In this document: positions 431 to 18,096 of the stretch, one piece after another
Numbering within the stretch: the first letter of the stretch is position 1
Layout of the letters: each line of letters opens with the position of its first letter
Virus record (IMG/VR): IMGVR_UViG_3300023179_000222
Location: 1 to 40,928 of that record
DNA length: 40,928 nt
Source: a virus
Reading direction: 5' to 3' (one strand)
Translations under genes and position numbers: made by a program
Notes under the pieces: generated by a model
The model's database searches: none
Told to the model about the DNA's origin: nothing
Seen by the model: only the letters and a program-made list of their open reading frames with translations

Positions 431-3400
431 ATGGCTAATACAAATCCAGGTGGGCTGAATTTAAACGTCAGCCCATACTATGATGATTATGACGAAGATA
501 AAAAATTTGTAAGAGTTCTTTATGTTCCTGGGCGAGCAGTTCAAGCCCGTGAACTTTCACAATCGCAAACACTTCAGCAAAAGCAAATCGAAAGATTTGC
601 TAATTACTTTTTCAAACAAGGTTCTATTGTTGACGGATGTGAACAAACTATCGATTTGTCAATGCAGTATGTCAAACTTCAATCCACATATAATTCTGTG
701 GAAGTTGACGTTACAGATTTTGAGTTGAAAGAAATTGTCGGCGCAAATACTGGTATAAAAGCTTATGTTGGCATCGTTTCCGATTTAGAAGATACTGATC
801 CCAAAACATTATTCATTAATTACTTAACAGCAGGTGCAGTTTTACTCACAGTAAATACTGCACCATCAACACTTACTGTCGGAAATACAATCACATTTTC
901 AACAGGAAATACTGCAACAATCAGATCGTGGGTAACTGATCCTCTTAGTTCTGGTATAACACTTTATGTTGCAAACGTAACGGGCACATTAACAACTACA
1001 ACGGCCAATACTTATCTTAGCGACGGTAGTCTACAAACTTTAAACGTTACAGGAATTACCGATAAAAGATCATCCATTATATTTGAAAATTCAGAATTAC
1101 TTTTTACAGCAAACACAACGTCAAGATTTTATGCAAACTCTGCAATATCTGAAGCTACACAGTATACAGAAGATGCTGGATTGTCAACGGAAAAAGTATA
1201 TACAAAAGGATCAAAAGTCACCATAGGTGATGGTGTTGTTTATATCGCAGACCATTTTGTTAAAAATTCATCACAGACGTTAATTTTAGACAAGTATAAA
1301 AATATACCATCCTATAAAATAGGATTTGTTCCTGTAAAAAGTTATGTAGATTATCTTGGAGATACGTCACTTGTTGATAACGCAGCAGGCACACCCAACT
1401 ATCAAGCGCCTGGTGCTGATAGACTTAAAATAGATACAAGTCTAACTAAAGTTGCTTTAAATGCAACAACAGATGAAAATGAATTTATTGCTATTTTAGA
1501 AGTTGAAAGCGGTATCATTAAAAAGAAAAAGAGCACTCAAATAGAGAGTAAACTCGAAGAGGCCGTAGCAAAAAGAACATTTGAGGAGTCTGGCAATTAT
1601 ACGCTTTCAGATACGAGATTAAATGTCCGTGAACACTTGTCACAATCAGGAAACGGTGGTAGATATACAGCATTAGAGAGTGGTAACAGCAGTTTACTGT
1701 TTGTTGAAGTGGATCCATTCACATCATATGTGAGTGGGTATAGAAATGAATTTTTAGTAAAGCAAGGAATTAATTTAGAAAAAGGTTTGTTCACACAATC
1801 TGAAGTGCAAATCAAAACGCAAATCAATACAGGAAACTATGTTGAAGTGAAGGAGCTTGTAGGCTCTTGGGATTTCATGGAAGCAACTTCAATTGATTTG
1901 TATGATACAGCACAAAAAGTTATTAGCAATAATTCGTTTTCTACTGCAACTGTAACAGGCACAAGTATAGGCACTGCAAAAGTTAGAGCGATTGAATATG
2001 TAAGTGGTAACGTAGGCACAGCGGATGCGAGATATTATTTGTATCTTTTTGATGTTGTCATGAATTCTGGCAAAATCTTTTCAGATGTTAGAGCTGTTTA
2101 TGATTCAGCAACGCCTAAACGATTTGCTGACATTGTTTTGGATTCAAACGGAAATGCAATTTTACAAGAACAATCTTATGATCGTGCAATTTTTCAGTTG
2201 CCTTATAATGCAATAAAAACTTTGCGTGATACTGGCGGAAACGTTCAAAACGGTTATAGATTCAAAAAAGATTTTTCAGTTACGTTTACAGGCGGAATTG
2301 CTACAATTTCAACAACAGATTCAACTGAAACTTTTGTCGGCACCGGATCATTATCAACAGCACAGAAAAATGAAAACTATCTTGTCTTTATCAACAATTC
2401 TGGAGCAAACGTTGAAACGTCAACATTAACTGGCACAGTTACTATATCGGCAGCATCAACTAATGTTGTGGGTAGTGGTACATCATTTACGACACAATTA
2501 AATGTCGGCGACTTAATTAAAGTAAATAGTCTTACAAGAAAAGTTGCATCTATTACCAATACATCATTTTTAACACTTGATAGCGCACATACAACAGGCG
2601 CATCAGCAAATACGTTTACTAAAATTCTTCCTACAGGAACGCCCATTTACTTAGGCGGAAATGGAGGAACAGGCTCAACCAGAACAGTTTCGGTTTCTTC
2701 TCCAGGAACACTTCAGATCGATATCAAAGAAAATGCAACATTTACTGCTAGAGTTGTTGCTACAATGGATAGAGCAGAAGCTAGAGAAATGACGAAGATT
2801 CTAAATTATTCTGCCAATACAAATTTAAATCCTAGCACACATCCGAATGGTTTAGTTGGCCCATATAATCTCGGTAGAGCCGATGTTTATCAACTTCGTG
2901 GAATTTATCAGGCAGCTAATTTTTCAGCAAATGCCACAACATCTGACACAAACGTAACGTCAAATTATATATTTAATAATGGTCAACGTGATAACAGCTA
3001 TGAACATGCTACAATCACACCAAAAGTTGGTGTAGTTCCTACAGGCCGTTTACATGTCGTTTATGATTTCTTTACACATGACACAACACAAGGCGTTGGT
3101 TATCTATCGGTCGATTCTTATCCCGTAAACGATTCTGTAGCATCCAATACAACAATTACGACAGCATCAATACCAAAATATGTAAGCGTAAGAACTGGCG
3201 CAACTTTCGATTTAAGAAACTGTTTAGATTTTAGACCTATCAAAACGTCAAATACAGCATTGAACCCATCAGATCCAGGCACATTTCAAGTTGCAACAGG
3301 AGGAATTCACATTCCTACGCCTGGTTCAGATTTTCAGTCTGATCTTATTTTCTACAAAGGAAGAAAAAGTAAACTGTATTTGGATCAAAAAGGCACACTG

Positions 3401-6400
3401 AATTTTAATGACGGTTCACCTGGATATCCAAATCCTCTTTCACCGCCTTCCATTCCCGATGGAATGGACATTGCAGAGTTAACTATTCCTCCATATCCAT
3501 CATTACCATCTGAGATTAATATTCGTTTGATGAAAAACAAACGATATACAATGAAAGATATTGGTAAAATTGAAGAGAGAGTAAATAAACTTGAATATTA
3601 TACAGCATTAAGTTTGCTTGAGAAACAAGCGACAGATAAAGTTATTTTAGACGATGATGGATTAGATAGATTTAAGAATGGTATTATAGTTGATGCGTTT
3701 ACAGGATCATCAATCGCTGACGTATCATCAAATTCTTATAGCGCAGCAATTAATCGTGATGAAAAATATGCTACAGCATATGCTAATAATGAAAATCAAA
3801 TTAAAATTTCATATACATCTACAGGATCTTCAGGTGTAGTAAGAACTTCAGGCAATAAGATTATGCTTTCTTATAGTGAAGAAACATTTATCGATCAGCC
3901 TTATGCATCTACGCCAATCAATCTTGCACAAGAATTGACATGGACGTGGGTTGGTGATGTTGAAGTTTTACCTCCAACAGATAACTGGTTAAGTACAACC
4001 AGAGATACATCAAACAATTTGGTTATTGACAATTCTGGAGAAGCTGATAATTGGAGACGGTTAGCAAATGCATGGAATACTGAAGTTGCTCCTTTAAATA
4101 GACACTGGGTAGGAGAGACAACCTCAGCAACAACTAGAAGTAGCGAGTGGCAATTTGAAAGTTCTACAAATCAATCTGTGACTTGGGGTATTTTTGATGT
4201 AACTAGAACGGTAACACAAAATATCCAGAGAGAGTTTATTCAAGACGCTCAAGTTACTACTGGGCCATCCACAACAAGGGCTACTGCTGATCGTGTTGTA
4301 GATATATCTATAGCGCATAACATGAGAAGCCGTGATTTTATTTTTCAAGCAACAGGTATGAAATCTGGCGCAAGATTGTATGCATTTTTTGATGGTGTTG
4401 ATGTAACTGCAAATTGCAAACAAATTAGAATACCTACAGGAAAAACGCTGCAAAATTTATTTGATGCTATGAATAATGACGGTAAAATTCCAGCATCATC
4501 AAATAACACCAATTATGTGCTAGTTTCCAATGGTTCTATGCGTGTCAATGAGGATCATACAATTTTAGGTGTATTTACTGTACCAGCAAACACTTTTAAC
4601 GTTGGAACTAGGGAGTTCAAATTAACTGATAGTCCAACAAATTCTGATGGCAGCACAACAACATACGCAAAAGAATCTATTCAAGCATTAGGTATATCTC
4701 AAACCAAGAGTACAACATCAATAAACACCAGACCCATAAGTGTAAGTTTTGATAGTCCGAATTTAAGAACATTTACCGGTAGACAACAAGTAACTTCAAC
4801 AAGCAGTTCTGTTGTTAATGCTGTAAGAACAGGAACAATTACACAGGTTTTTGATCCACCGCCACCACCAAGATTTGATCCAGTAGGACAAAGTTTTTAT
4901 ATCGATGAGGCGTTATATCCTGATGGTATTTACATCACATCTTTAGATTTATATTTTAAAACTAAATCTAGAGATAATGCACTAGGAGTTACACTAGAAA
5001 TTCGTGAAATGGAAAACGGATTTCCAACTCGTAAAGTCATAGGTGGTGAAAGAGCTAGAGTTCTTTCTTCAGCAATTTCAATAAGTGAAGATGCATCATC
5101 TGCCACAACATTCACTTTCTCAAATCCAATTTATCTATTGCCTGATTCTGAGTATTGCTTCGTAGCAAAGCCTGACGGCAATTCGGATGAGTTTCAAATT
5201 TGGACTGCTGAATTGGGGCAGATAGATATTACAAATAGTGATGTTAGCGTGAGAATTGATAAGAACAATGCTTTGATTGCAGGTGTTCTTTTTACAAGTT
5301 CAAATGATTACACATGGAGTGCGAAACAAAATCTTGACGTAAAATTTAAGATGAGAATTGCAGCATTTTCATCTACAGGAACCGCAGCTTTTATCAATGC
5401 TCCAATCAGCGGAAATAATGTCACTTATACAGCATTTCAAACAAATATTGAAGATTTGGTGCCATCTCAAACTTCAATTGATTATCAGGTACGGACTGCT
5501 GATAGCACATACACAACCGATGATTATTTTACAGTTAAAAATTTAGAACGTATTGTTTTATCTTCACAAAAACAAATTTCAAATACAATCAATGAAACTG
5601 CTGAATCATTTAATTCATTTGGTGTATTGGCGCAACTAACATCGTCAAGTAGATATATTAGCCCATACATTGACATCACACGAGGCAACGTTGCGCTTGA
5701 AGATTTAGTTATTAATAATTCAACATCAACATCGGTTACTGGAACGGTAACATATTCAGCGGGATCAAATGTTGTTGTTGGAACTGCTACAGCATTTAAC
5801 ACTCAAATTTCTCCGGGCCAATACGCAAAATTTGGTGATCAATATAGACTCGTTGCGAATGTTGTGAATGCTACATACATGACAGTCGCTACAAATTTTA
5901 TAGAATCAAACAGTTCAAGTCAATTGATTACAATTAAAAATGAAGAAAATCCTGGGCTTCCTTATACATCTGAAAGTCGGTATATCACACGACGAATTGC
6001 TCTGAATGATGGTTTTGAGGCAAATGATTTAAATGTTTATATTGATGTGAACAGGCCTGCAGGAACAGACATTAAAGTTTATTATAAAATATTAAACGAA
6101 AATGATAATGATAATTTTGATGATAAGTTCTATCAAGAAATGACTTTGAGTGGAACTAAAATATTTAATCAAAATTCAAAAATTTATAGTGAAGAAAGAT
6201 ATGTTATGCCTACATCAATTAAAACTGGCGGTAATTTGCTTTTATCTGGTAATGTTTTAGTATCAAGTTCAAATACAAATGTTGTAGGAACTTCAACAAG
6301 ATTCTTAGAAGAAGTTAAAATAGGAGACACAATTGCTGTTGGAACAAGTCGTATTGAAAGGGTCGTTTCATCGATTTCAAATAATACATTCTTGTCCGTT

Positions 6401-6592
6401 GAAAGTGTATTTCCTTCTTCGAATAGTGGTTTAGATGCATTCTTAGTTTTGAACAATGCAATTCAATATACAACGCCTGATAATAGAACGTTTACAGGAT
6501 TTAAATATTGTTCAGTTAAGATTGTGTTTTTATCAGACAATGACTCATTTGCACCTAGAATCAAAAATCTAAAGGCGATTGCACTAGCATGA
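431..6592 (+). CDS. Giant baseplate/tail structural protein, DUF4815 type (2053 aa)
   Basis: A very large virion protein, probably peripheral baseplate or fibre. The first ~60 residues (NLNVSPYYDDYDEDKKFVRV, then GRAVQARELSQSQTLQQKQI) are characteristic of the DUF4815 family of T4-like phages, and that domain probably fills the first several hundred residues. Around residue 1475 a five-proline hinge precedes FDPVGQSFYIDEALYPDG and a jelly-roll-like stretch often seen in phage baseplate fibres. Three copies of a ~60-residue beta-rich module (GTxFxxQLxxGDxI pattern) lie at about bases 2422-2620, 5731-5935 and 6236-6450. No signal peptide or membrane segment. The ribosome-binding site is weak (GGAA before the ATG). 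It takes the place of T4 gp9/gp10/gp11, and those functions could be merged here, but that is inference. Confidence 0.75.
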   Translation: MANTNPGGLNLNVSPYYDDYDEDKKFVRVLYVPGRAVQARELSQSQTLQQKQIERFANYFFKQGSIVDGCEQTIDLSMQYVKLQSTYNSVEVDVTDFELKEIVGANTGIKAYVGIVSDLEDTDPKTLFINYLTAGAVLLTVNTAPSTLTVGNTITFSTGNTATIRSWVTDPLSSGITLYVANVTGTLTTTTANTYLSDGSLQTLNVTGITDKRSSIIFENSELLFTANTTSRFYANSAISEATQYTEDAGLSTEKVYTKGSKVTIGDGVVYIADHFVKNSSQTLILDKYKNIPSYKIGFVPVKSYVDYLGDTSLVDNAAGTPNYQAPGADRLKIDTSLTKVALNATTDENEFIAILEVESGIIKKKKSTQIESKLEEAVAKRTFEESGNYTLSDTRLNVREHLSQSGNGGRYTALESGNSSLLFVEVDPFTSYVSGYRNEFLVKQGINLEKGLFTQSEVQIKTQINTGNYVEVKELVGSWDFMEATSIDLYDTAQKVISNNSFSTATVTGTSIGTAKVRAIEYVSGNVGTADARYYLYLFDVVMNSGKIFSDVRAVYDSATPKRFADIVLDSNGNAILQEQSYDRAIFQLPYNAIKTLRDTGGNVQNGYRFKKDFSVTFTGGIATISTTDSTETFVGTGSLSTAQKNENYLVFINNSGANVETSTLTGTVTISAASTNVVGSGTSFTTQLNVGDLIKVNSLTRKVASITNTSFLTLDSAHTTGASANTFTKILPTGTPIYLGGNGGTGSTRTVSVSSPGTLQIDIKENATFTARVVATMDRAEAREMTKILNYSANTNLNPSTHPNGLVGPYNLGRADVYQLRGIYQAANFSANATTSDTNVTSNYIFNNGQRDNSYEHATITPKVGVVPTGRLHVVYDFFTHDTTQGVGYLSVDSYPVNDSVASNTTITTASIPKYVSVRTGATFDLRNCLDFRPIKTSNTALNPSDPGTFQVATGGIHIPTPGSDFQSDLIFYKGRKSKLYLDQKGTLNFNDGSPGYPNPLSPPSIPDGMDIAELTIPPYPSLPSEINIRLMKNKRYTMKDIGKIEERVNKLEYYTALSLLEKQATDKVILDDDGLDRFKNGIIVDAFTGSSIADVSSNSYSAAINRDEKYATAYANNENQIKISYTSTGSSGVVRTSGNKIMLSYSEETFIDQPYASTPINLAQELTWTWVGDVEVLPPTDNWLSTTRDTSNNLVIDNSGEADNWRRLANAWNTEVAPLNRHWVGETTSATTRSSEWQFESSTNQSVTWGIFDVTRTVTQNIQREFIQDAQVTTGPSTTRATADRVVDISIAHNMRSRDFIFQATGMKSGARLYAFFDGVDVTANCKQIRIPTGKTLQNLFDAMNNDGKIPASSNNTNYVLVSNGSMRVNEDHTILGVFTVPANTFNVGTREFKLTDSPTNSDGSTTTYAKESIQALGISQTKSTTSINTRPISVSFDSPNLRTFTGRQQVTSTSSSVVNAVRTGTITQVFDPPPPPRFDPVGQSFYIDEALYPDGIYITSLDLYFKTKSRDNALGVTLEIREMENGFPTRKVIGGERARVLSSAISISEDASSATTFTFSNPIYLLPDSEYCFVAKPDGNSDEFQIWTAELGQIDITNSDVSVRIDKNNALIAGVLFTSSNDYTWSAKQNLDVKFKMRIAAFSSTGTAAFINAPISGNNVTYTAFQTNIEDLVPSQTSIDYQVRTADSTYTTDDYFTVKNLERIVLSSQKQISNTINETAESFNSFGVLAQLTSSSRYISPYIDITRGNVALEDLVINNSTSTSVTGTVTYSAGSNVVVGTATAFNTQISPGQYAKFGDQYRLVANVVNATYMTVATNFIESNSSSQLITIKNEENPGLPYTSESRYITRRIALNDGFEANDLNVYIDVNRPAGTDIKVYYKILNENDNDNFDDKFYQEMTLSGTKIFNQNSKIYSEERYVMPTSIKTGGNLLLSGNVLVSSSNTNVVGTSTRFLEEVKIGDTIAVGTSRIERVVSSISNNTFLSVESVFPSSNSGLDAFLVLNNAIQYTTPDNRTFTGFKYCSVKIVFLSDNDSFAPRIKNLKAIALA

Positions 6593-6830: not shown

Positions 6831-7922
6831 ATGGCAATCGCAAACGTAGCTTTATCGAACACATTTAATCAATTTCGCTCAACGACAAATGATGTAATTG
6901 CTCAAGTCAATGAGCTGTATGCTGTCACAGGAGTTACACCAGGAACTTATGGCAGTTCAATATTAGTTCCTGTCATTACCGTAACTAATCAAGGTAGAGT
7001 TACCAGCATAGCAAATGTATCAGTGGGTGGTGTTGGTCAATTTAATTATCACACAGGTAATGCAAATTTTCAGATTATAACTTCAAGCGGAACTTCATTT
7101 CTCGCTAGCATCGGGCAGCGCCTAGACACATCCGCAAACGTCATATTTAATAATTTAACCGCCACAGGAAACGTAACATTTACAGGAAACGTTACTTCAG
7201 TAACAGCAAACAATCTCGTCGTTCAAGATAATCTTATTCAAATTGGAAAAAATAATGATACTGATGTTGTAGACTTAGGATTTATCGGCCACTATAAGAG
7301 AACGTCCGACAATGTAAATGCCCATGCAGGTTTGTTTAGAGATGCTTCAGATGGCATCTGGAAGTTTTTTGATAATTATCCAATTGAACCTGGCACAAAT
7401 ACAAACATTGACACGGCTAATAGTCAATTTAGAATTGCAAATCTTACAGCGCACAACATTACATCAAACGGCATATTTTACGGTGTGGGTTCGGGGCTAA
7501 CAACACTGAATGCATCAAACGTTTCAAGTGGAACACTTTCTAATGCTAGAACAACAGCATCATCTTCTAACGGTGCATCGACGATTGTTGCTAGAGATGC
7601 TTCAGGATCATTCACAGCAAATAATATTACAGTCACAGATTTAAATTCTACTTCAGATATTAGACTTAAAGATAATGTAATCGAAATTGATAATGCATTA
7701 GAAACGATAACAAAATTGTCTGGAATTAAATTTAACTGGAAAGATACGGGGAAGATAAGTTACGGCCTATCAGCACAAGATGTAGAGAAAATTATACCTG
7801 ACATTGTAATGACAAGAAATGATGGTAATAAAGGCATTAACTATCTAAACATTATAGCATTTTTAATTGAATCTATCAAAGCTTTAAACGAACAGATAGA
7901 AAAATTAAAATCACATAAATAA
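6831..7922 (+). CDS. Tail fibre with C-terminal S74 intramolecular chaperone
   Basis: A 363-aa fibre. Residues ~95-190 (NVTFTGNVTSVTANNLVVQD and the following DVVDLGFIGHYK) are of a type common in T4-like tail fibres. From residue 275 the protein carries the peptidase S74 / endosialidase chaperone signature: S275-D-I-R-L-K280, then GLSAQDVEKIIPDIV, an NYLNIIAFLIESIK helix and a coiled-coil end. In this family the domain drives trimerisation and then cleaves itself off, with cut just before the Ser; Ser275 and Lys280 match the conserved pair. The mature fibre would therefore end near residue 274. The gene starts 2 nt after the small coiled-coil gene and probably shares its transcript. Host-receptor binding is inferred. 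Confidence 0.85.
   Translation: MAIANVALSNTFNQFRSTTNDVIAQVNELYAVTGVTPGTYGSSILVPVITVTNQGRVTSIANVSVGGVGQFNYHTGNANFQIITSSGTSFLASIGQRLDTSANVIFNNLTATGNVTFTGNVTSVTANNLVVQDNLIQIGKNNDTDVVDLGFIGHYKRTSDNVNAHAGLFRDASDGIWKFFDNYPIEPGTNTNIDTANSQFRIANLTAHNITSNGIFYGVGSGLTTLNASNVSSGTLSNARTTASSSNGASTIVARDASGSFTANNITVTDLNSTSDIRLKDNVIEIDNALETITKLSGIKFNWKDTGKISYGLSAQDVEKIIPDIVMTRNDGNKGINYLNIIAFLIESIKALNEQIEKLKSHK
7914..7921 (+). promoter_or_regulatory. Candidate late promoter CATAAATA
   Basis: CATAAATA differs at the first base from the T4 late consensus TATAAATA. It lies across the last codons and stop of the S74 fibre, about 35 nt before the next start. The same one-base variant recurs before the genes at 8670 and 25067, which makes chance less likely. 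Confidence 0.4.
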
Positions 7923-7955: not shown

Positions 7956-8639
7956 ATGGCAATCAAAGTAGGCGGTTGTACCGTCATCAATGATACCAAA
8001 TGTTTGACCAATATTTGTTCAGTGGGACTAGTCTGCGGTAACGAAGGCACCGCAGGTCAATATTTAAAATCTCAAGGTCCAGGGCAACCAACTGTTTGGG
8101 ATAGTATATCCAACGCAAGTTTTTCCACTACAGCAACGATAGTTTCGTATCCATACGAAAATCGTGGAATTCTTAGAACACTTACAACTGCCAATGATGG
8201 CACGACAGCTTTTATTGAAGATTTAGGATATTTTAAATTTAGTTTAGGCGTAATAGACACTGACGATGATGAAACATCTTTTGTTATTGCCGAAATTGGA
8301 ACTTGGGTATTAACTGCTCCCACATGGGAAACAACTAGAGCATACACAGAATTTGAAAGAGTAGGTAGAAATTATACTGTTTTAGTTGACAATTCAATTG
8401 GATGTTTTGTTACAAATCCTGTGTGTCAGAATGTAAATATTCCTGGTGCAGCACCTAATGATTTTTATCAAATTCAAGCATATTGTGGATGTGCTTATGT
8501 AGGAGAAATTAGAGCAAATTATAATAATGCTACAGGATGTGTAATGTTGATTGGATCAATACCCCGTGTAAATTCAACTTCAGCTTGCGGTAATTTTTCT
8601 AGCGTCTGTAAATGGCTAGTATATGTTCAAAAAGCATAA
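7956..8639 (+). CDS. Cys-containing putative fibre/adhesin protein (227 aa)
   Basis: Unrecognised family. Residues ~29-48 read GNEGTAGQYLKSQGPGQPTV, a variant of the GsaGqvLtSnGsGapTW linker common in phage tail fibres, so a fibre or collar role is likely. It has 11 cysteines by hand count, clustered in the first 27 residues (four) and the last ~90 (seven, including CGC), which is unusual for a phage structural protein and is shared with the next gene. The middle (~60-130) is beta-rich. A strong Shine-Dalgarno (AAAAGGAG) precedes ATG 7956. No signal peptide. It is probably co-expressed with the much larger Cys-rich protein downstream, possibly as its base or partner; that is inference. Confidence 0.6.
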   Translation: MAIKVGGCTVINDTKCLTNICSVGLVCGNEGTAGQYLKSQGPGQPTVWDSISNASFSTTATIVSYPYENRGILRTLTTANDGTTAFIEDLGYFKFSLGVIDTDDDETSFVIAEIGTWVLTAPTWETTRAYTEFERVGRNYTVLVDNSIGCFVTNPVCQNVNIPGAAPNDFYQIQAYCGCAYVGEIRANYNNATGCVMLIGSIPRVNSTSACGNFSSVCKWLVYVQKA

Positions 8640-8669: not shown

Positions 8670-11600
8670 ATGCCGTTAGTTAGAGGATTACGACTACTAA
8701 ACTCACTTGAATCAGGTAATATTTCAGGCACATGTTTAGAAACTTTGATGACATGTCCGGCAAGACAAAATGATTTCATTAGCATATTGCAATCTCCTGG
8801 ATTTGCTTGTCTCGCAGCATCTTCAAACGCATCTACTTACGCAGTCACTCGGTCAAACACTGCATTAAATACACTAGGTCAAAGCACAATCGGTGCATGT
8901 ATTTACTATTCGACGCCTGCGTTTGCAAATAACTTTGCGTATTCAGGTAATGCTTTTAATAACTTTTTGACAAGTAATGACACACTAAAGCATTTTGCAA
9001 ATTCAGATTTAACAATGTCTTGCGCTTTCGCAACTGGAACGTCATTCATTCAATGTGTTGTAGCATCAAATACTAATTTGTCAAGAATGTTTGTTTGTCC
9101 AATTACGACATGCTGTATCTTTAGAAATCCATCTGCAATGGCAAGTTTAGCTAACAATTCTAACATTGTGGCATATTTGTTTTCTGATCCAACTGCGTCA
9201 GCTTGTTTTACCACATACGGCGGTGCGACTGCGATATGTAATGCATTTGCAGGAACTGCTTATGTCAATTATATTTTACAGCCTGGAGTTACATGTTCAA
9301 TATTTGCTGATCCTTGTATAGGTCCCTATGCATTTACTCAAGCAAGTTCAGCAAATTCATTCATAAGAAACGTTTGTGCATATACTGCTTTAGTTAATTT
9401 GCCTGCTTGCTGTGCTCTAGGCACTAGCTGCACTTTCACATGTTTTGCTAATTCTACATACGGAATTCCTTGTGCAACAACAGAATATATTAGTGGTAAC
9501 ACAGGATTTATTAATGAGGTTTTCAATTTGAATTCTTGCGCTCAATTGGGCGCTTTAACAACGTGCAATGCGTCTTTTATTCGATGCTATTATCGTGCGA
9601 CAACTCCATTTAATGATAAATTTAGTTGTTTTTGGAATACTGCAAGTTCAGGCGCAGCATCAGCTTTTTCTAGTTTTGACTTAAATAGTATCTCCGTAGA
9701 TAGTTTAGGAATTAGAACTCCATGTCTTGAATCGTTTTTAACTCCTGCTGAATCTATATATTATGCTTGTGTCTGGTGTCAATATAAAGATTCTGTATCA
9801 TCATCGAACAACGGAAATTTCATTTTGGTTGGCGGCGGATATACAGTTCCTGGTAATGTGCCCCTTTACAGCAGTGGTGGAACACCACTGTGTCTGTGTA
9901 TTGAAACAGCAAACTATTGTACAGCAGTTCATGATACTGTAAAAACAAATGGTTTTTGTGTGTGTTGCCCAGGAATGATGTACTCAAATAATGATGGTTG
10001 TATATTTTACAGAGTTCCTGGATTCTGTATTCCCAACACGTTCTTCACATGTGTATGCTGTGATGGATTTTTATATAATGCATGTACCGCAGGCCAATGC
10101 GGAAAAGTTGAAATTCAATGGGCTTTGGGTGGATTTACATGCGAAGGATCAATTTGGCAGGGTTTTAGAATTAATAATCTTTGCTGTAAGAGTCACGGCG
10201 TTTGGGGATATGCGTGTGCTACCGTTCAAGCAAATAATACGCCCGGTGCATGGACAGTTTGTTTAGGATCATTTCCGTTTTATTTTACAACATTCTGCTG
10301 CGGATACTTTTCAGGTATCGGTGGAGATTGTGTGACTACAAATTTTACAGGCGCAGGCTTATTTAATGCAGGATATTCAAATGGTCCTGGCAATTGTTAC
10401 TATCGGGGAGCACATATACCAAGATTTGTTATAGGAAAAATGACTGGTTCCGCTAACACATGTGCATTTTGTTTAGTTGGAGCCAATTCTAGATGTAACT
10501 GTAATCCTTTTACACAAGTGTTAAGAGGTGTCTGTGTGGATGCATGTTTTGCGTGCTGCTGTGCTTTAAATAATCCTTTTTGGTGCATTATGTCATGTTT
10601 TCAGGATCGTGTGAACTTATGTTCAAAAATGCCTGTGATAAGTTTTATGACATGTGTCTACGGATGCCCTAATAATATTAGAGCATGGATGCTTCAGCTT
10701 CATGATTTGTGCTATACAGCCTGCGGAACGTATGTTTACAATGTTACTCAATGCCAGCCGTTTGATGTTGTAGGCTATCACGCCCATTGTAATCTTATAG
10801 AGTGGAATAACGGTTCTCCTAGGAATTGTAATTTATCTCATGCAGACAATACTATTTTAACTATTGGCGCAGTTATACCTCTCGCAAATACAGTATTGTA
10901 TGTGTCATCGTGGACAGCTTATTGCGTATGTATTGAACCTGGTACACCTACTTACTTCTGTTATCATTGCAGTCCTATGTTATGTATGTTGAGAGCGCAA
11001 TGTAGTAATTTTACTTGGGGAAATTGTACAACGTGTTCTCCTGATGCCTATTGTACATTTTTAAGTGTGACTTGCGGCCGGGCCTATAATATGTTTAATA
11101 GTAGCAGATATACTCCTGCTTGTAGTTATTTTGACTGCTATTCTTCTACTACATACAATAATACTTCATTGCCATTGTTTGGTGCGGGGTATTTGCCGGC
11201 AAGCTACGGACCCTGCTACTTTATGTCTTATGAAGGTTCCTGTATAACCGGTTGCTGTCTAGATCAGGGTTATTCCGTAATATTAAACGCAAATAATAAT
11301 ACATTTGTTGCGACTTTGATGCATCATTATTGTCAATATTCAAGTAGTGGTAGTTTTGCACCGCAAATATTATATAATTATCCAACGGACGGAAGCAACG
11401 CAAACACGATATACGGAAGAGCAGATTGCGCTGGAGCAGTAGCAGCAGCATGTAGTTATTATTGCTGCCTTAATACATGTGGACCAAGAAACTTTTGTAA
11501 TATTTTACTTACGGGACTTTGTAGCCCGCGATTGGCTGTTACTAGTCCCACCTTTGGGATGACATGTTGCGCGAATTTCTTAAGAGATAGAATTCCTGGT

Positions 11601-12086
11601 TGTCCTATGCCGGCATTTTGCAATTCATTTTACACTCTTTGTGCTAGAAGTGATGCAATCGCTATAGCAGGCTGGCCGTGTGCGGTTGTATATGGAGGCA
11701 ATTACGGTGCACCGTGGGGCGCTAATACTTCAGCAGGCACGACAATAACATGTACAGATTTTTATTGTTATAATTCGGTGGGATGTCTTTTATGTTTGGG
11801 AGCAAATCCTGCGTCTCCTAGTTCTGCTGATGATTTTGGTCGATGTTCATTTCGAGGCGGATCTTATGGATGGACATGTAAAGTTCTTTGCAATCCAAGG
11901 TTGTTTTCGTTTTGTACACTTGGCACTAGCCATACAATATCGCCGCTTGCGCCAAGATTCGTATGCACTGCAAATTCAATGCCTAGCATTGCATTTGGGC
12001 ATTTGTTGTGCGGTTCCGGATTCTATGCAAACGGAGCAACATATACAACATGTACATTTAAACTAAGATTTATTGATATGTTCTAA
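8670..12086 (+). CDS. Extremely cysteine-rich putative virion adhesin (1138 aa)
   Basis: I do not recognise a Pfam family for the body. By hand count there are about 108 Cys (~9.5%), with many CC and CxC pairs, one CCC, and abundant Gly, Asn, Phe, Tyr and Thr. The N-terminus (VRGLRLLNSLESGNISGT, then a Cys-poorer region with alternating short Ala/Asn/Ser repeats to ~residue 200) resembles N-terminal attachment and repeat regions of phage fibre proteins. Cys density rises sharply after residue ~230. No signal peptide or membrane helix, so it is made in the host cytoplasm. A good Shine-Dalgarno (AAAGGAAA) precedes ATG 8670. Placement between the S74 fibre and a fibre-assembly-like gene supports a receptor-binding or surface role. 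Cystines after lysis or metal binding are both possible. Confidence 0.6.
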   Translation: MPLVRGLRLLNSLESGNISGTCLETLMTCPARQNDFISILQSPGFACLAASSNASTYAVTRSNTALNTLGQSTIGACIYYSTPAFANNFAYSGNAFNNFLTSNDTLKHFANSDLTMSCAFATGTSFIQCVVASNTNLSRMFVCPITTCCIFRNPSAMASLANNSNIVAYLFSDPTASACFTTYGGATAICNAFAGTAYVNYILQPGVTCSIFADPCIGPYAFTQASSANSFIRNVCAYTALVNLPACCALGTSCTFTCFANSTYGIPCATTEYISGNTGFINEVFNLNSCAQLGALTTCNASFIRCYYRATTPFNDKFSCFWNTASSGAASAFSSFDLNSISVDSLGIRTPCLESFLTPAESIYYACVWCQYKDSVSSSNNGNFILVGGGYTVPGNVPLYSSGGTPLCLCIETANYCTAVHDTVKTNGFCVCCPGMMYSNNDGCIFYRVPGFCIPNTFFTCVCCDGFLYNACTAGQCGKVEIQWALGGFTCEGSIWQGFRINNLCCKSHGVWGYACATVQANNTPGAWTVCLGSFPFYFTTFCCGYFSGIGGDCVTTNFTGAGLFNAGYSNGPGNCYYRGAHIPRFVIGKMTGSANTCAFCLVGANSRCNCNPFTQVLRGVCVDACFACCCALNNPFWCIMSCFQDRVNLCSKMPVISFMTCVYGCPNNIRAWMLQLHDLCYTACGTYVYNVTQCQPFDVVGYHAHCNLIEWNNGSPRNCNLSHADNTILTIGAVIPLANTVLYVSSWTAYCVCIEPGTPTYFCYHCSPMLCMLRAQCSNFTWGNCTTCSPDAYCTFLSVTCGRAYNMFNSSRYTPACSYFDCYSSTTYNNTSLPLFGAGYLPASYGPCYFMSYEGSCITGCCLDQGYSVILNANNNTFVATLMHHYCQYSSSGSFAPQILYNYPTDGSNANTIYGRADCAGAVAAACSYYCCLNTCGPRNFCNILLTGLCSPRLAVTSPTFGMTCCANFLRDRIPGCPMPAFCNSFYTLCARSDAIAIAGWPCAVVYGGNYGAPWGANTSAGTTITCTDFYCYNSVGCLLCLGANPASPSSADDFGRCSFRGGSYGWTCKVLCNPRLFSFCTLGTSHTISPLAPRFVCTANSMPSIAFGHLLCGSGFYANGATYTTCTFKLRFIDMF

Positions 12087-12098: not shown

Positions 12099-12704
12099 AT
12101 GAAACTTATCATATCAAATAATCGTGTAATTGCAACTTTAACTGACCAATATGATGGTCCTCATGAGTGGATTTTTGCTCCTGAAGATTTTGATGATTCT
12201 AGAGCATTTGATTATATCGTTGATCAAAATGGAAATTTAACACTACCTGCTCCACCTGAAGTTGAGCAGGTAGAAATTCCAGAAAAAACTTTATTGGAAA
12301 TTTTAGAATCTGCTGTTGAAGCTAGATTGGATTTTTTTGCAAAAACACGAGGATACAGTAGTATAGGTATCGCTACAACATATATCAATTCAATCATTGA
12401 TGCATATAAAAATGAAGCTGAATATGCAATACAAATTAGAGATGACACCTGGGTGAAGTTTTATGAAATTATGAACGATGAAAGCAGAGATCCTCCTGTT
12501 GAGAGTTTTTCTGATATAGTGGCTGAATTGCCTGTTTTAGCATGGCCTGAAATTGAAGTCTCAAACACTGAAGTCTCAAACACTGAAGTCTCAAACACTG
12601 AAGTCTCAAACACTGAAGTCTCAAACACTGAAGTCTCAAACACCGAAGTCTCAAACAGCGAAAATATTATTATAGTTTCCAACACCGAAATCGCAAACAC
12701 TTGA
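12099..12704 (+). CDS. Small fibre-assembly-like protein with EVSNT pentapeptide tail
   Basis: 201 aa. Residues ~65-128 (LESAVEARLDFFAKTRGYSS, later RDDTWVKFYEIM) follow the pattern of phage tail-fibre assembly chaperone-type proteins (DUF4376-like: a Arg/Phe-rich helix, GY-x-S, then a helix with RD-x-x-W). I recall this from family features and it needs a profile search. The N-terminal ~60 residues look like a small beta domain with a PAPP linker. The C-terminus, from residue ~153, is seven in-frame EVSN[TS] pentapeptides encoded by a 15-bp tandem repeat. It starts 12 nt after the Cys-rich gene, so it probably serves that protein or the S74 fibre. It could instead be a small virion decoration. 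Confidence 0.55.
   Translation: MKLIISNNRVIATLTDQYDGPHEWIFAPEDFDDSRAFDYIVDQNGNLTLPAPPEVEQVEIPEKTLLEILESAVEARLDFFAKTRGYSSIGIATTYINSIIDAYKNEAEYAIQIRDDTWVKFYEIMNDESRDPPVESFSDIVAELPVLAWPEIEVSNTEVSNTEVSNTEVSNTEVSNTEVSNTEVSNSENIIIVSNTEIANT
12555..12659 (+). repeat. 15-bp tandem repeat, seven units
   Basis: The unit GAAGTCTCAAACACT is repeated from 12555 in steps of 15. Units 1-5 are identical, unit 6 ends ACACC and unit 7 ends ACAGC. A decayed copy (GAAATCGCAAACACT) ends at the stop codon. The unit length is a multiple of three, so copy-number changes would lengthen or shorten the EVSNT tail without breaking the frame. Confidence 0.95.
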
Positions 12705-12775: not shown

Positions 12776-13714
12776 ATGAGAAAAATTATTTTTATCGATG
12801 GTGGCGCTGGTAGAGCGATTGCAGCAATACCAGCATTAGAAAAATTAGTAAAGAATAGCAAAAACAAAGACGATATTCGGATTGTTATTTTTGGTTGGGA
12901 CAACTTAGTGTGGGGAAACACACTTCTTCAAGACATTACATACAATGCTGATACAAAAGGTATCTTTGATGGTTTCATTAAAGATGCTGATGAAACCATT
13001 TCACCTGAACCCTACAGATTACCTGCGTACTACAATCAAAAGTGCTCACTAGCTGAAGCGTTTGATGCTTTAATCAATAATACTACAGATCATTCAGACT
13101 TGCCTCCTGTTAAATTGTATGTGAGCAAAGCGGAAGAAAAGAATGCAGTAAATTTGATTGCAGATGTGAAGTCACAACAAAAGAAAGAAAAAACGATTGT
13201 CATTCAACCTTACGGAAGAAGTGCAAGAGTTGATAGAAATGATATCATTGATGATAGTTCAAGAGGTCTTGATTCACATGCATACCTAAGACTCGTCAGA
13301 AAACTTTCTACAAAATATAATCTTATACTTTTTGCAGAGAAGCCTTTCTGGCAGCAAGATGATACATTCACATTTAAACCTGAAATGGATTTGAGAATGT
13401 GGTCAGCAGTGATTGAAGCTTGCGATTATTTCGTAGGATGTGATTCAGTCGGTCAACACATGGCTAGAGCATTCAATAAACCGGGCACAGTTTTTATTGG
13501 ATCAACTTATACAATTAATGTGTCATATCCTGATTGGTTTAATATGTACGAAAAACCAGGAGCAGAAAGAAAGTATTCTCCTATTCGTGTTTGTGGGCTT
13601 GATTCACATTTAGCAGATCGGTACAATGATAAATGTATGGATCTAACTGATAAAGACATAGATGATTTGTTTATGTCAATTGTTAAAGATATAGAAAAAA
13701 AGGTGGGTAAATAA
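12776..13714 (+). CDS. GT9-like (heptosyltransferase-type) glycosyltransferase
   Basis: 312 aa. The N-terminus (MRKIIFIDGGAGRAIAAIPALEKL) has the Gly-rich loop and helix of GT-B ADP-heptose:LPS heptosyltransferase-like enzymes, and residues ~220-245 (GCDSVGQHMARAF then KPGTVFIGSTY) match the conserved sugar-nucleotide-binding motif near the C-terminus (DSG-x-x-HxA, then the Gly-x-T region). Normal family length is ~320-350. It is predicted to transfer a sugar from a nucleotide donor; donor and acceptor cannot be read. It overlaps the carbamoyltransferase by 1 nt (TAATG at 13712-13716), so the two are coupled. ATG 12776 is chosen because MRKIIFIDGG is the family start. The AAGGA box lies 11 nt upstream, closer to a three-codon ORF at 12768. 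Confidence 0.75.
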   Translation: MRKIIFIDGGAGRAIAAIPALEKLVKNSKNKDDIRIVIFGWDNLVWGNTLLQDITYNADTKGIFDGFIKDADETISPEPYRLPAYYNQKCSLAEAFDALINNTTDHSDLPPVKLYVSKAEEKNAVNLIADVKSQQKKEKTIVIQPYGRSARVDRNDIIDDSSRGLDSHAYLRLVRKLSTKYNLILFAEKPFWQQDDTFTFKPEMDLRMWSAVIEACDYFVGCDSVGQHMARAFNKPGTVFIGSTYTINVSYPDWFNMYEKPGAERKYSPIRVCGLDSHLADRYNDKCMDLTDKDIDDLFMSIVKDIEKKVGK

Positions 13715-15474
13715 TGAAATTTAATATTCTAGGCATTAATCCTGGGCATAATGGATCAGCAGCACTTATCTCTGATGGTGAAGTTGTATTCTACGTTGAG
13801 GAAGAAAGATTAACAAGAATGAAGTATGATGGCAATCCATTCCGTGGAATGCTGGAAGTTTTAAAACATTGGCATGTTGACGTTCTAGTTATTGCGGGAA
13901 CAGGGCAAGAAGAGCATAGACTTCCATGGACAGGTGAAGACGCTTACTCAGCTTTAGTAAGAAAATTTAATCCTGCTGTTCGTGTGATTAGACTAGGGCA
14001 TGAACATCATCTAGGCCATGCAGCAGGCGCATTTTACAATTCAGGTTTTGATAAAGCAATCGCTCTAGTTGTAGATGGTGCAGGATCATTAAAGACTGAA
14101 AAAATCAATGAGCAAATGGAAATTCAAGGATTTGAAGCTGAATCTGTTTGGTTATGTGAATATCCAGGAAAATTTTCGCTTATTCATAAAGCTTACGGAA
14201 ACAATTCTGGTCAAAAGTTTGACACTGGTGCATTTTCTTTTGACAGTGCGGTAACAATTACTAAAGCATACGAAGCAGTATCACAATACTTAGGATTTGG
14301 CTTTATTGAAGCAGGTAAAACGATGGGATTAGCACCGTACGGTAGAAAAGATGATAATATTCCGTCACTATTCTTAGGAAATCGTGGTTCTAAAGATGTT
14401 TTCTTGCCGTCATATCCTGCTGGTGCGTATGTAGATCAATTTAGAATCAAATATCTTGCACAAAATAAAGATCCAAAAGATTGGCATAGAAGCCCAGAAA
14501 AACTTACTGATGTTGAAAAGAATTTAGCATGGCAAATTCAACACGACACTCAAAAGCTTGTCGGTGATTATGTTGAGAATGCATTACGTACTGTTCCTGA
14601 TGTGACAAATGTCGTATTTGCAGGCGGGTATGGTTTAAATTGCGTAGCAAATTATTATCTCGTTAAAAGATTTCCTCATATTAATTTCTACGTTGATCCA
14701 ATTGCACACGATGGCGGAACATCAATTGGTGTGGCGAAGTTAATTTGGCACACTGAGCGTGAAGATGAAACAATTCGCCCTCAAACAAGCATCTACTACG
14801 GTCCAGAATATTCGGCGGATGAATTGAAGGCTGTATTAGATAAAAATTCAAACAAAATTGCTACAAAATCTGTCACGAAACATGAGATTGCACAGATGAT
14901 TGCTGATCGAAATATTGTATCAATCTTTCAGGGTCGCTCTGAAGCAGGTCCTCGTGCATTAGGTAATAGGTCCATTCTATATGATCCACGTGATCCTGAT
15001 GGTAAAGAAACTGTAAATACCGTTAAGGGCCGTGAATGGTTTAGACCGTTTGCAGGATCATGTCTTGTAGAAGACGCAAATGATTGGTTCGACATGGCAG
15101 GAATGAAAGAATCGCCATTCATGATGTATGCTGTAAATGTCGCAGCAGATAAAGTGCATGAGATTCCTAATATTACGCATGTAGATGAAACATGTAGAGT
15201 TCAAACAGTATCCGAAGAATCTAATAAACATTACTACGAATTAATTAAAGAGTTTAAGAATATCACTGGTGTTCCTGTATTGTTCAATACATCATTCAAT
15301 CTTGCTGGAGATCCTCTTGTAGAAACACTTGACGATGCTCTAGACACTTTATATCGATCTAAATTAAAGTATTTGTATTTGCCTGAGTTGAGCCTTCTCG
15401 TTGAGAAGACTATTGAAGATCCTAAAGATGAGAAGATTGTAATTAATACGACAAATGATATGATAGAAATGTAA
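13714..15474 (+). CDS. O-carbamoyltransferase, NodU/CmcH/TobZ family
   Basis: 586 aa, the normal two-domain length. The N-terminal kinase-like domain has GINPGHNGSAALISDG (residues 7-22), VEEERLTR (28-35) and the HEHHLGHAAGAFYNSG segment (96-111), whose histidines match the metal/carbamoyl-adenylate site in TobZ-type enzymes. The C-terminal YrdC-like domain contains GRSEAGPRALGNRSIL at ~407-422 and NTSFN near 528. The family makes carbamoyl-AMP from carbamoyl phosphate and ATP and transfers the carbamoyl group to a sugar or antibiotic hydroxyl. Co-translation with the glycosyltransferase suggests the substrate is a sugar added by it. All motifs look intact, so it should be active. It ends just before a bidirectional terminator. 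Confidence 0.9.
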   Translation: MKFNILGINPGHNGSAALISDGEVVFYVEEERLTRMKYDGNPFRGMLEVLKHWHVDVLVIAGTGQEEHRLPWTGEDAYSALVRKFNPAVRVIRLGHEHHLGHAAGAFYNSGFDKAIALVVDGAGSLKTEKINEQMEIQGFEAESVWLCEYPGKFSLIHKAYGNNSGQKFDTGAFSFDSAVTITKAYEAVSQYLGFGFIEAGKTMGLAPYGRKDDNIPSLFLGNRGSKDVFLPSYPAGAYVDQFRIKYLAQNKDPKDWHRSPEKLTDVEKNLAWQIQHDTQKLVGDYVENALRTVPDVTNVVFAGGYGLNCVANYYLVKRFPHINFYVDPIAHDGGTSIGVAKLIWHTEREDETIRPQTSIYYGPEYSADELKAVLDKNSNKIATKSVTKHEIAQMIADRNIVSIFQGRSEAGPRALGNRSILYDPRDPDGKETVNTVKGREWFRPFAGSCLVEDANDWFDMAGMKESPFMMYAVNVAADKVHEIPNITHVDETCRVQTVSEESNKHYYELIKEFKNITGVPVLFNTSFNLAGDPLVETLDDALDTLYRSKLKYLYLPELSLLVEKTIEDPKDEKIVINTTNDMIEM

Positions 15475-15504: not shown

Positions 15505-16242
15505 CTATTCTAGACTGTTTGCAAATTCTAGTAAATTACTATAAGTTTTAACTTTATTTTTTAGTTCTTTATTTGCAAATGAATCAAGCTTAGTTTGAGT
15601 ATCTGAAAAATTGCCTGTTTGAATTAGAATAGGCTTCACATTCATTGTATCAGCTATTTTCAAATTATAAATTTTATCGCCGACAAAATATCCATTTTTA
15701 AATGATAGGCGCATGTCATTTTCAGCTTTCTTTAGCATTCCTGTATTGGGCATAGCATATATATCTTCTTTCATGTTTGTTGTAGCATATAGCATACCAT
15801 CTATAGTGAAGATGCCAGCTTGGCCGAAAATGTTCATAAGTTGCTGATTAATTACATCAACATTTTGCTGAGTCATTTTTCTTTGGCCGATCAAAGGCTC
15901 ATTGAAAAATATAACCAATTTATAACCCTTTAGTCTAATTGTTCTAATACCTTCTAAAGAGCCTGGAATAATTCTAATGTCATTTGGAGTTAGAATAGAT
16001 TGAGTATCATCCATAAATACTCCACGATCTATACCAATTGTTTCTTTAGGAAAGAATGTTGGCCAGTTCGCAGGAGACATCTGTTGAGACATTCCATATG
16101 ATTGAGGCATTTGAGGTTGACCATATGAAACTGGTTGATTATAATCTGGAACAGTATATGGTTGTTGAAATGGTTGCTGTTGTTGAGGAACTGAATTTGT
16201 ATAGTTCCCGGTACTTCTTTCTACTGAAAATCTACCACCCAT
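15505..16242 (-). CDS. HAD-fold GmhB-like protein, catalytically degenerate, with Q/P/Y-rich leader
   Basis: 245 aa. Residues 1-60 are low complexity (Gln, Pro, Tyr, Ser; QQQQPFQQP), followed by a HAD domain of the histidinol-phosphatase / heptose-bisphosphate phosphatase type (residues ~61-245). Family motifs are recognisable but broken. Motif I DRDGT reads IDRGVF, with the second Asp deleted. The motif II Thr is Phe (VIFFN). The motif III Lys is lost (AMPNTGML for RKPxPGML). The zinc Cys/His loop is gone. VGDK (187-190) remains, but the following Asp is Asn. It is therefore probably a pseudophosphatase with a structural or ligand-binding role. A GGAG box precedes the ATG. It is transcribed leftward from its own sigma70-like promoter and ends at the shared terminator. 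Confidence 0.75.
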   Translation of the reverse strand: MGGRFSVERSTGNYTNSVPQQQQPFQQPYTVPDYNQPVSYGQPQMPQSYGMSQQMSPANWPTFFPKETIGIDRGVFMDDTQSILTPNDIRIIPGSLEGIRTIRLKGYKLVIFFNEPLIGQRKMTQQNVDVINQQLMNIFGQAGIFTIDGMLYATTNMKEDIYAMPNTGMLKKAENDMRLSFKNGYFVGDKIYNLKIADTMNVKPILIQTGNFSDTQTKLDSFANKELKNKVKTYSNLLEFANSLE

Positions 16243-16271
16243 AATAACTCCTTTTTTTCAATGGACACTGC

Positions 16272-16301: not shown

Positions 16302-16322
16302 GTTCTATTTTGAGGAAAAGCA

Positions 16323-16460
16323 ATGGCTAAACCTGTCGCCAGAGAAGAATTCAAAGAGCATTGTTTACGCAGACTAGGCAAACCCGTTCTAGAAATTAAT
16401 GTTGATGATGACCAAGTTGAAGATCGAATTGATGAAGCGTTAGCGTATTATCACTCATGA
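16323..16460 (+). pseudogene. Truncated copy of the gp13 5' end (45 codons)
   Basis: Starts MAKPVAREEFKEHCLRRLGK and is nearly identical to the beginning of the full neck gene at 17347: over the ~115 nt from the shared AGAGAAGAATTC to TATCAC I count about eight differences, mostly silent and concentrated toward the 3' end. Directly after TATCAC the homology stops and a TGA closes the frame at 16458-16460. It keeps its own late promoter and ribosome-binding site, so a 45-aa peptide may still be made. The differences suggest a copy from a related phage genome that recombined here, not a fresh tandem duplication. Confidence 0.85.
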
Positions 16461-16867
16461 TACCTTGATGTACTGCATCAACTTGATTTGTAGTTTGTAA
16501 TTTTTTATGAATCCCCGCTTGATTTGTGAGAATCATCAGACGATGACCTTTCAAACGAATCATACGAATCGCGTCAAGGCTACCTGGAATATAACGAATC
16601 TGACTATGGTCGGTGATGTACTCACCTATGTCTTCATTGATTGTGCCATCTCTATCTAATCCGATGATGTGGTTAGGAAATACAGTAGGCCATTGTTTTT
16701 GCATCTCCTGCATTTGTTGCATCTTCATCATTTGCTCTTGCGACATTTGATTTTGTTGCTGGAAATGATTGTGCCAGCCACTAGAGTATGGCGATCCACC
16801 ATAAGATGGAACTTGTCCTTGCGGTAGTGGGTTGTGCTATCGCAGTATCCGAATTAAACCGACCCAT
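16396..16867 (-). pseudogene. Broken second HAD phosphatase (GmhB-like), frameshifted and truncated
   Basis: Paralogue of the HAD gene at 15505-16242 with catalytic motifs intact: HIIGLDRDGTINED (motif I) and LMILTNQAGI (motif II). The C-terminal half is missing: homology ends at about 16456 where the gp13 fragment begins, and the last ~20 residues of the open frame are antisense gp13. The original start is probably ATG 16867-16865 (MGRFNSDTAIAQ, matching MGGRF of the paralogue and overlapping the cupin stop), but that frame hits a stop after 28 codons. The frame continuing into the HAD core (HNPLPQGQVPSYGG) is one base off, so one extra base near 16838-16842 broke it. An internal ATG at 16746 could still start a 116-aa fragment. 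Confidence 0.8.
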
Positions 16868-17228
16868 TCTGAGAGTCTCCTGGCGCAATACGGTAGTTGT
16901 CCTCTACGCTATCTGGCGTAGAAACTTCAATAATAATGGAATTATCTTCTAATGCGACAAGTCGATGTGGTAGATTTGGTGGGTTTCTCCAAGTGTCGCC
17001 TTTTGCAAGGATTTTCTTCATCGTTGATGCATCTTGTGTGTTGATGATCTCTAATTCAAATGACCCATTCAAGACGTACCAAGACTCATCTTTTTCGGTG
17101 TGAAAATGTAGGGAAAATTTACCGCCTGCCTTATCGAAACACAGCAGTTTGCCGCAGTATTTGTCGTTAGTTGCGAAGATAACTTCTCGACCCCATGCTT
17201 TATTCACGATACCTTCTAATCTTTGCAT
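16854..17228 (-). CDS. Cupin-fold protein, probable sugar-metabolism cupin
   Basis: Single-domain cupin. With the ATG at 17228 as start (124 aa), cupin motif 1 G-x5-HxH-x4-E-x6-G is perfect: G35, H41, H43, E48, G55. Motif 2 supplies H88 in GDTWRNPPNLPHRL. These four are the usual metal ligands. The closest resemblance is to mannose-6-phosphate isomerase-type and sugar-epimerase-like cupins, so a nucleotide-sugar step is a reasonable guess; the substrate is unknown. A GTG at 17240 is an alternative start, but GTGAG there fits better as the ribosome-binding site for ATG 17228. It was once followed, with overlap, by the second HAD gene, and is driven by a strong sigma70-like promoter. Confidence 0.75.
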   Translation of the reverse strand: MQRLEGIVNKAWGREVIFATNDKYCGKLLCFDKAGGKFSLHFHTEKDESWYVLNGSFELEIINTQDASTMKKILAKGDTWRNPPNLPHRLVALEDNSIIIEVSTPDSVEDNYRIAPGDSQNGSV

Positions 17229-17261
17229 ATTATATCTCACTATAGGTTACAAATAATAAAC

Positions 17262-17346: not shown

Positions 17347-18096
17347 ATGAGCACTCACAAACCAGCATCAAGAGAAGAATTCAAAGAGCATTGTCTACGC
17401 AGACTAGGCAAACCCGTTCTAGAAATTAATGTTGATGATGACCAAGTTGAAGATCGGATTGAAGAAGCTTTATCATACTATCACGATTATCATTTTGATG
17501 GTACTGAAAAAGTTTTTTTAGCGCATCAAGTTACAGCAGAAGATAAATCAAACAAATACCTTTCAATTCCTGAATCTGTCATAGGCGTCATCAACATTTT
17601 TGATATTGGTGACTCTTATTCTACCAACAATCTGTTCAATATAAGATATCAAATCGCATTGAATGATCTTTTCGCATTCAATTACGGACCATTTGCACCT
17701 TATTACATGGCCCTCCAAAATGTAGCACTTGCTGAAGAACTTTTTGTCGGTCGGCAAAGTCTTCGGTACAATCGGCACGTCAATAAACTTTATATAGATA
17801 TGGACTGGGAAGCTAAAGTTGCTACAGGTGAATATATCATTGTTGAAGCATATCAAAAACTAGATCCGGACACATACTCTGATGTATGGAATGATAGATG
17901 GCTTCAAAGATATTGCACAGCATTGATCAAAAGACAGTGGGGTGAAAATCTGAAAAAGTTTGAAGGGCTTCAAATGCCCGGCGGTCTGACTTTCAATGGT
18001 CAGAAGATATGGGACGAGGCGACTGACGAAATTACGAAGCTAGAGGAAGAAATGATTAGCTCATATAGTCTCCCGATATCAGATATGATTGGATAA
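17347..18096 (+). CDS. 13: Neck protein gp13
   Basis: 249 aa. The sequence EEFKEHCLRRLGKPVLEINV near the start, QSLRYNRHVNKLYIDMDW in the middle and the end SSYSLPISDMIG are what I recall for gp13 of T4-like phages from marine hosts. In T4, gp13 forms a ring with gp14 that completes the head and gives the tail its docking site. T4 gp13 is longer (309 aa); the shorter form is usual in environmental relatives. It is followed 2 nt later by gp14. A truncated copy of its first 45 codons lies about 1 kb upstream. Confidence 0.9.
   Translation: MSTHKPASREEFKEHCLRRLGKPVLEINVDDDQVEDRIEEALSYYHDYHFDGTEKVFLAHQVTAEDKSNKYLSIPESVIGVINIFDIGDSYSTNNLFNIRYQIALNDLFAFNYGPFAPYYMALQNVALAEELFVGRQSLRYNRHVNKLYIDMDWEAKVATGEYIIVEAYQKLDPDTYSDVWNDRWLQRYCTALIKRQWGENLKKFEGLQMPGGLTFNGQKIWDEATDEITKLEEEMISSYSLPISDMIG

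Follow-up and report, generated by a model that had tools for sequence, protein, structure and literature searches.

Cysteine-rich putative fibre tips linked to a heptosyl/carbamoyl gene cassette in T4-like phages: a possible case of phage-encoded S-glycosylation

The locus

The window analysed here is the whole of a 40,928-nucleotide stretch of viral DNA (IMG/VR virus record IMGVR_UViG_3300023179_000222, positions 1 to 40,928). Its open reading frame (ORF) 8670..12086 on the + strand encodes a cysteine-rich protein, named P0001, which is very probably a tail fibre tip. We propose, with a probability of roughly 0.4, that P0001 acts as a hypervariable tip for receptor binding and that its surface cysteines serve as the substrate of a linked heptosyl/carbamoyl cassette. 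Judged by its sequence, the source phage is T4-like, of the Kyanoviridae type, and the window terminase is nearest to those of Methylophilales phage Melnitz and Synechococcus phages.

The tip gene lies within an adsorption module, with a VrlC/gp10-like gene upstream, the neck gene gp13 downstream and a fibre gene with an S74 chaperone close by. The same placement, between a VrlC/gp10-like protein and gp13, was found in cultured T4-like phages. The VrlC/gp10-like protein has tblastn matches in Ochrobactrum phage OC, Pelagibacter phage Mosig and numerous cyanophages. The tip gene is followed downstream by a Cys-free ORF, a glycosyltransferase family 9 (GT9)-like gene, a NodU-like carbamoyltransferase gene, genes for GmhB-like phosphatases and a cupin gene. 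The features are:

431..6592, + strand: VrlC/gp10-like connector from baseplate to fibre (2053 aa; PHROG 358, E=0)
6831..7922, + strand: Cys-free fibre protein with a C-terminal Peptidase_S74 chaperone domain (PF13884, E=1.6e-13; PHROG tail fibre families)
7956..8639, + strand: companion fibre protein (227 aa, 11 Cys)
8670..12086, + strand: P0001, Cys-rich putative receptor-binding fibre-tip protein (1138 aa, 108 Cys; homologues in loci L163, L164, L165, L129 and L161)
12099..12704, + strand: Cys-free ORF between tip and glycosyltransferase, by its position only a possible fibre assembly protein
12776..13714, + strand: GT9-like (heptosyltransferase-type) glycosyltransferase (PF01075, E=0.002; TIGR02201, E=1.3e-4; DSxGQHxA motif in alignment A7)
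13714..15474, + strand: NodU-like carbamoyltransferase (PF16861, E=3.4e-61; PF02543, E=1.7e-27)
15505..16242, - strand: GmhB-like haloacid dehalogenase (HAD) phosphatase of the heptose bisphosphatase type (NF006506, E=3.5e-18, below its cut-off)
16396..16746, - strand: short second GmhB-like HAD ORF, probably a truncated duplicate (NF006506, E=1.1e-16, N-terminal half only)
16854..17240, - strand: cupin, member of the sugar cassette (PF00190, PF07883)
17347..18096, + strand: neck protein gp13, downstream edge of the adsorption module and anchor for sampling related loci

Profile searches of protein families gave no match for the Cys-free ORF 12099..12704. Near its C-terminus a 15-bp repeat occurs seven times (12554-12657, 98% match). 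The two GmhB-like ORFs (15505-16746, - strand) adjoin each other, and the longer one has an altered active-site motif.

Cysteine content of P0001 and its homologues

A sequence-only reading of this DNA had reported about 108 cysteines (about 9.5%) over 1138 residues, and the count on the ORF translation bears this out (108 Cys/1138 aa, 9.5%; ATG start, no internal stop). The cysteines are encoded by 73 TGT and 35 TGC codons. The window's remaining main ORFs contain 0–1.6% Cys, with the sole exception of the companion gene (4.8%). That cysteines are sparse N-terminally and dense thereafter also holds, residues 1–200 having 11 (5.5%) and the remaining 938 having 97 (10.3%). The emphasis once placed on CC and CxC does not survive comparison with the expectation from local density: CC occurs 11 times vs. 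10.2 expected, and CxC 5 times vs. 9.1 expected. In the P0001 stretch, TGY (TGT or TGC) is found 108 times in the coding frame vs. 33 and 80 times when that strand is read in its two other frames. The Cys excess thus exists at the codon level, and a DNA-level cause (a motif or hypermutation) is ruled out. An altered genetic code is ruled out as well, since neighbouring genes translate normally.

Profile searching for homologues had been recommended on first reading. Direct searches with P0001 (Pfam, PHROGs, phage tblastn and a single-sequence viral scan) found no homologue; five metagenomic relatives were nevertheless reached, by way of neighbouring genes (L129, L161) and then via alignment (L163, L164, L165). 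These proteins have 1091–1391 aa and 118–146 Cys. P0001 and its L163 homologue are 55% identical overall. Their residues 1–200 show 78% identity with 11 of 11 cysteines kept, and residues 601–1000 are hypervariable (identity 31–40%, Cys retention 0.48–0.64), with Cys density maintained there. Among the ungapped columns of the six-member family alignment, 38 have Cys in all six sequences and 60 have Cys in one sequence only. The alignment thus indicates a family in which Cys density is conserved and Cys positions are conserved only in part. Non-conserved positions had been named beforehand as an outcome that would speak against the sequence-only reading, and the picture is mixed: about 38 columns are invariant in the six homologues and many others turn over. 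In L163, L165 and L167, homologues of the companion protein (221–229 aa, 11–14 Cys) directly precede the homologues of P0001.

A wider class of Cys-rich tips

The distribution of Cys content was taken from the 2092 proteins in this and related loci that have 150 aa or more, a set enriched for one Cys-rich family by prior retrieval. It is bimodal: nearly all proteins have below 3% Cys, a second mode lies at 8–12%, and few fall between. As far as sequence comparison can tell, the Cys-rich putative tips are a recurring class on several sequence-unrelated scaffolds at the same module position. P0001 has the features of this class, namely at least 7% Cys in a long ORF of the fibre module, with a GT9-like gene and a carbamoyltransferase gene directly downstream. 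Scaffolds unrelated to P0001 are seen in a 631-aa protein with 74 Cys (L127), in four proteins of 317–356 aa with 26–33 Cys (L133, L136, L147, L158), and in a 1287-aa protein with 137 Cys (L006), the contig of which ends inside the gene and hence offers an incomplete locus.

Cultured cyanophages with Cys-rich tips are P-SSM2, S-CAM1, S-CAM3 and S-SSM7. P-SSM2 has two such proteins (355–356 aa, 36 Cys each) and S-CAM1 three (25–36 Cys); the proteins of these two phages fall in the function-unassigned PHROGs 35878 and 4205. The single-cell virus AG-345-O18 likewise encodes a Cys-rich protein of the tip class. We found no published virion proteome for a phage bearing a Cys-rich tip, and S-PM2, for which a proteome is published, has no such tip. 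A search covering part of the literature found no published description of the class. A role in host recognition is of an already known kind; the Cys-rich class with its cassette is a novel variation on it.

Repeat adhesins with lower Cys levels, likewise unrelated in sequence, were seen among the related loci. L084 (805-5331) and L094 (304-3471) encode NTTG-repeat adhesins with Cys at variable repeat positions (4.7% Cys in both), and L083 (3-350) encodes collagen-like GCPGC repeats with Cys. Across these three loci Cys is about 5–10%.

Linkage of the tips to a sugar cassette

The GT9-like proteins share a conserved DSxGQHxARA motif (alignment A7), which we take to be the GT9 signature. The L163 cassette also contains an ADP-heptose 6-epimerase, scoring above the curated cut-off. 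Linkage between tips and enzymes was assessed in 37 loci drawn via gp13, irrespective of Cys. The GT9-like and carbamoyltransferase genes were both present in 7/7 loci with an ORF of >7% Cys and in 0/30 loci without one (Fisher p 1e-7). Neither enzyme was found in 28 of those 30, the other two (L084 and L094) having a distant GT9-like gene alone. Follow-up via the carbamoyltransferase added four further cyanophages, with linkage in 4/4, and follow-up via the GT9-like protein from genome contigs gave linkage in 8/8 loci, two of which are near-identical. Pelagibacter phage Mosig has a carbamoyltransferase and neither a GT9-like gene nor a Cys-rich tip.

The gp13 tree implies five or more switches of the Cys trait. 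In 5/5 independent pairs the two enzyme genes changed with it; because there are only five such pairs, the sign test can give a p no lower than 0.06. In the GT9 tree, scaffolds of the window type fall into one group and those of the AG-345 type into another, adjoining glycine-rich (Gly-rich) types. This grouping indicates that Cys-richness outlasted scaffold changes, with three scaffold classes on one GT9 lineage. In general, a functional dependence between the Cys-rich tips and the cassette appears likely.

The eight contigs L260-L267 carry metagenome-assembled genome (MAG) labels (Euryarchaeota, Actinomycetota, Neomarinimicrobiota and others) together with T4-like phage genes, and their bacterial and archaeal labels are probably due to misbinning. 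Downstream of the tips in L257, L258, L263 and L267 there are genes of the 2-oxoglutarate (2OG)-Fe(II) oxygenase type, tryptophan halogenase genes or extra carbamoyltransferase genes, varying by phage. Such variation suggests variable decoration.

Fold and receptor-binding role

A structural model was obtained for the Gly-rich Cys-rich family (alignment A6, 74 sequences) with a predicted local distance difference test score (pLDDT) of 75.8 and a predicted template modelling score (pTM) of 0.78. Of the solved structures, this model most resembles the Bxb1 tail tip (9d93, E 9e-8) and the cyanophage Pam3 fibre (7ypx, E 5e-7), followed by the glycine-rich domains of ALK/LTK. Among viral models it matches proteins of S-CAM3 and P-SSM2, with Syn9 Gp38 lower in the list. 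The glycine-rich domain profile PF21722 was found in 30/74 members. Sequence-based searching of solved structures gave no match for alignments A3 or A6. In Pam3, the glycine-rich and TNF-like domains are reported to serve receptor recognition, and the distal tip is hypervariable (PMC9608196). Together with the fold matches, these findings favour receptor binding as the role of the class.

For P0001, no glycine-rich domain was detected by Pfam, by significant PHROG match or by sequence match. AlphaFold2 modelling from the six sequences gave a pLDDT of 27, with low-confidence short helices of a period of about 10 in residues 1–230. Since this model is unusable, the receptor role of P0001 rests on position, hypervariability and class membership. 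The earlier view of a fibre-type protein gains from the position between the gp10/VrlC-like gene and gp13, from the conserved cassette and from the predicted fold of the Cys-rich family found there, and to that extent it stands. Virion proteins need no secretion signal. We infer that P0001 is present in the virion and binds a receptor.

Proposed mechanism and rival explanations

In the proposed mechanism, the tip would fold in the reducing host cytoplasm with its thiols free and surface-exposed. The linked GT9-like enzyme, using ADP-heptose, would put heptose on many tip cysteines; carbamoylation of the Cys-linked heptose would perhaps come next, and the mature virion would display a glycosylated tip. 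Linkage to a heptosyltransferase-like gene suggests Cys as the acceptor of the cassette sugar, which we put at a little under even odds. The full outcome, phage-encoded S-glycosylation giving an S-linked (carbamoyl)heptose coat on Cys-packed receptor-binding tips, is proposed tentatively.

The main rival, and a serious one, is that disulfides formed after lysis, within and between the chains of a trimer, staple a loop-rich, fast-evolving adhesin, with varied disulfide patterns providing structural diversity as has been proposed for bovine antibodies. The sugar cassette would then act elsewhere, with tip Ser/Thr or the host's lipopolysaccharide (LPS) as possible targets. Disulfide stapling could coexist with sugar modification; as the explanation of the cysteines it seems possible, if somewhat doubtful. 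Virions operate in an oxidising medium, and these surroundings suit it. The 38 invariant Cys columns of the P0001 family are equally expected from structural disulfides, Cys is the best-retained residue in close pairs of the Gly-rich family (0.96 vs. a mean identity of 0.83), and Cys density is upheld in the hypervariable residues 601–1000. Movable cysteines have a precedent in comparable use in bovine antibodies, in which even Cys numbers are preferred (PMC7366855). Cys parity and steps were counted in the Gly-rich family, not in P0001 homologues, and there, unlike in the antibodies, even counts are not favoured (71 even, 62 odd; 133 members). Close pairs in this family differ by exactly one Cys change in 13/58 cases, exceeding the four same-direction double steps. 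In the Gly-rich family, the residue that replaces Cys is hydrophobic in 22% of cases, compared with 36% for other substitutions; the P0001 family has 18% vs. 44%. Such polar replacements indicate exposed positions. Odd counts, single-Cys steps and polar replacements together disfavour obligate disulfide pairing, and stapling gives no ground for the obligatory linkage to the GT9-like and carbamoyltransferase genes. Covariation of Cys columns could draw on three columns with at least four events.

The linkage to the enzyme genes is addressed by receptor matching, in which the phage enzymes alter the host surface polysaccharide, the Cys-rich tip binds it, and the genes stay together by co-selection or co-transfer. 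The cassette enzymes do resemble those of LPS heptose, the repeated parallel gains are compatible with cassette transfer, and cyanophage clusters of this kind have been treated in the literature as LPS genes with no known use (PMC3037559). Receptor matching leaves unexplained why Cys specifically should be enriched in unrelated scaffolds and why the enzyme pair is missing from all 30 loci without such a tip, and we regard it as unlikely. Very improbable is a metal-binding tip, in which Cys clusters would bind Zn, Fe or Cu, either stabilising the tip or attaching it to a metal-bearing surface. Metal ions do occur in other phage tail tips, and the Cys density is high. Against this, P0001 has little His (1.1%), few Asp and Glu and no enrichment of short Cys spacings; Cys positions in its family are movable, single-Cys steps occur in the Gly-rich family, and the enzyme linkage is unaccounted for.

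The proposed S-glycosylation has its own difficulties, to which the invariant columns and the high Cys retention also belong. Profile scores support the GT9 assignment weakly (E 0.002 to 1e-4, under cut-offs), and the enzyme matches no model of protein-modifying heptosyltransferases (BAHT), its only and weak matches being models of LPS heptosyltransferases. No common sequence context (sequon) was found around Cys across scaffolds, and sugars on both neighbours of a CC pair would crowd each other. L008 encodes a Gly-rich protein of 4.7% Cys with no cassette within the sequence covered. The linkage may also stem from a co-transferred cassette or from enzymes acting on host LPS, and no published observation of such a Cys modification was found.

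Other features of the window

About 15 kb downstream of the tip gene, 26703-29384 encodes a fibre protein that lacks Cys and has collagen-like repeats (PF01391) as well as a 147-bp tandem repeat. The structural-type ORF 33296-36703 (1135 aa) contains 54-bp tandem repeats at 33374-33625 and 165-bp repeats at 34772-35321; its first repeated part is ALRSVSDSRSISKISSQS. A PADLOC search gave no match.

Comparison with known systems

If cysteines of the tip do bear sugar, a viral adhesin would be S-glycosylated on a mass scale, with consequences for host range and for how such proteins elude standard proteomics, and the heptose gene clusters of marine cyanophages would gain a function. Sullivan et al. 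(2010) described LPS gene clusters in larger cyanophage genomes and left open whether they are functional or 'stuffer DNA' (PMC3037559). The linkage makes this question testable in cultured phages, and those 'LPS' clusters that adjoin Cys-rich tips may function for the phage's own fibre. Close parallels include PSSM2_304/306 of P-SSM2 and C030809_105-107 of S-CAM1, hypothetical proteins of T4-like cyanophages with 8–12% Cys and GT9-like and carbamoyltransferase genes just downstream. They differ from P0001 in their length of 299–356 aa and their Gly-rich scaffold, with no detected sequence homology.

Pam3 gp24 and gp38 of phage S16 (Pfam Gly_rich_2) share with the class the position at the fibre end and a hypervariable distal part, and the Cys-rich family of S-CAM1, S-CAM3 and P-SSM2 (PHROG 4205, 35878) is predicted to have the same fold. 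The Cys-rich class differs from them by its 8–12% Cys and its linked GT9/carbamoyltransferase cassette, and P0001 differs further in that neither a glycine-rich domain nor a sequence match was detected for it.

Among bacterial autotransporter systems, TibC uses ADP-heptose to heptosylate serines of TibA and AIDA-I (PMC4358343). As in TibC/TibA and AAH/AIDA-I, an adhesin would here be paired with a dedicated cytoplasmic glycosyltransferase that uses ADP-heptose at many sites (PMC4358343). The acceptor is Ser there, whereas Cys is proposed here, and the candidate phage enzyme lies outside the BAHT models.

Large extracellular proteins of Peribacteria resemble the tips in their very large size, a Cys content of about 7%, strain variability and a proposed role in attachment (PMC4736985); they are secreted cellular proteins, mostly with signal peptides, and no link to a phage fibre or a glycosyltransferase cassette has been described for them. 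In viruses of methane-cycling archaea, the tail spike is similarly one of the viral proteins richest in Cys (PMC9723712). These are other viruses, with counts from two genomes and no cassette reported.

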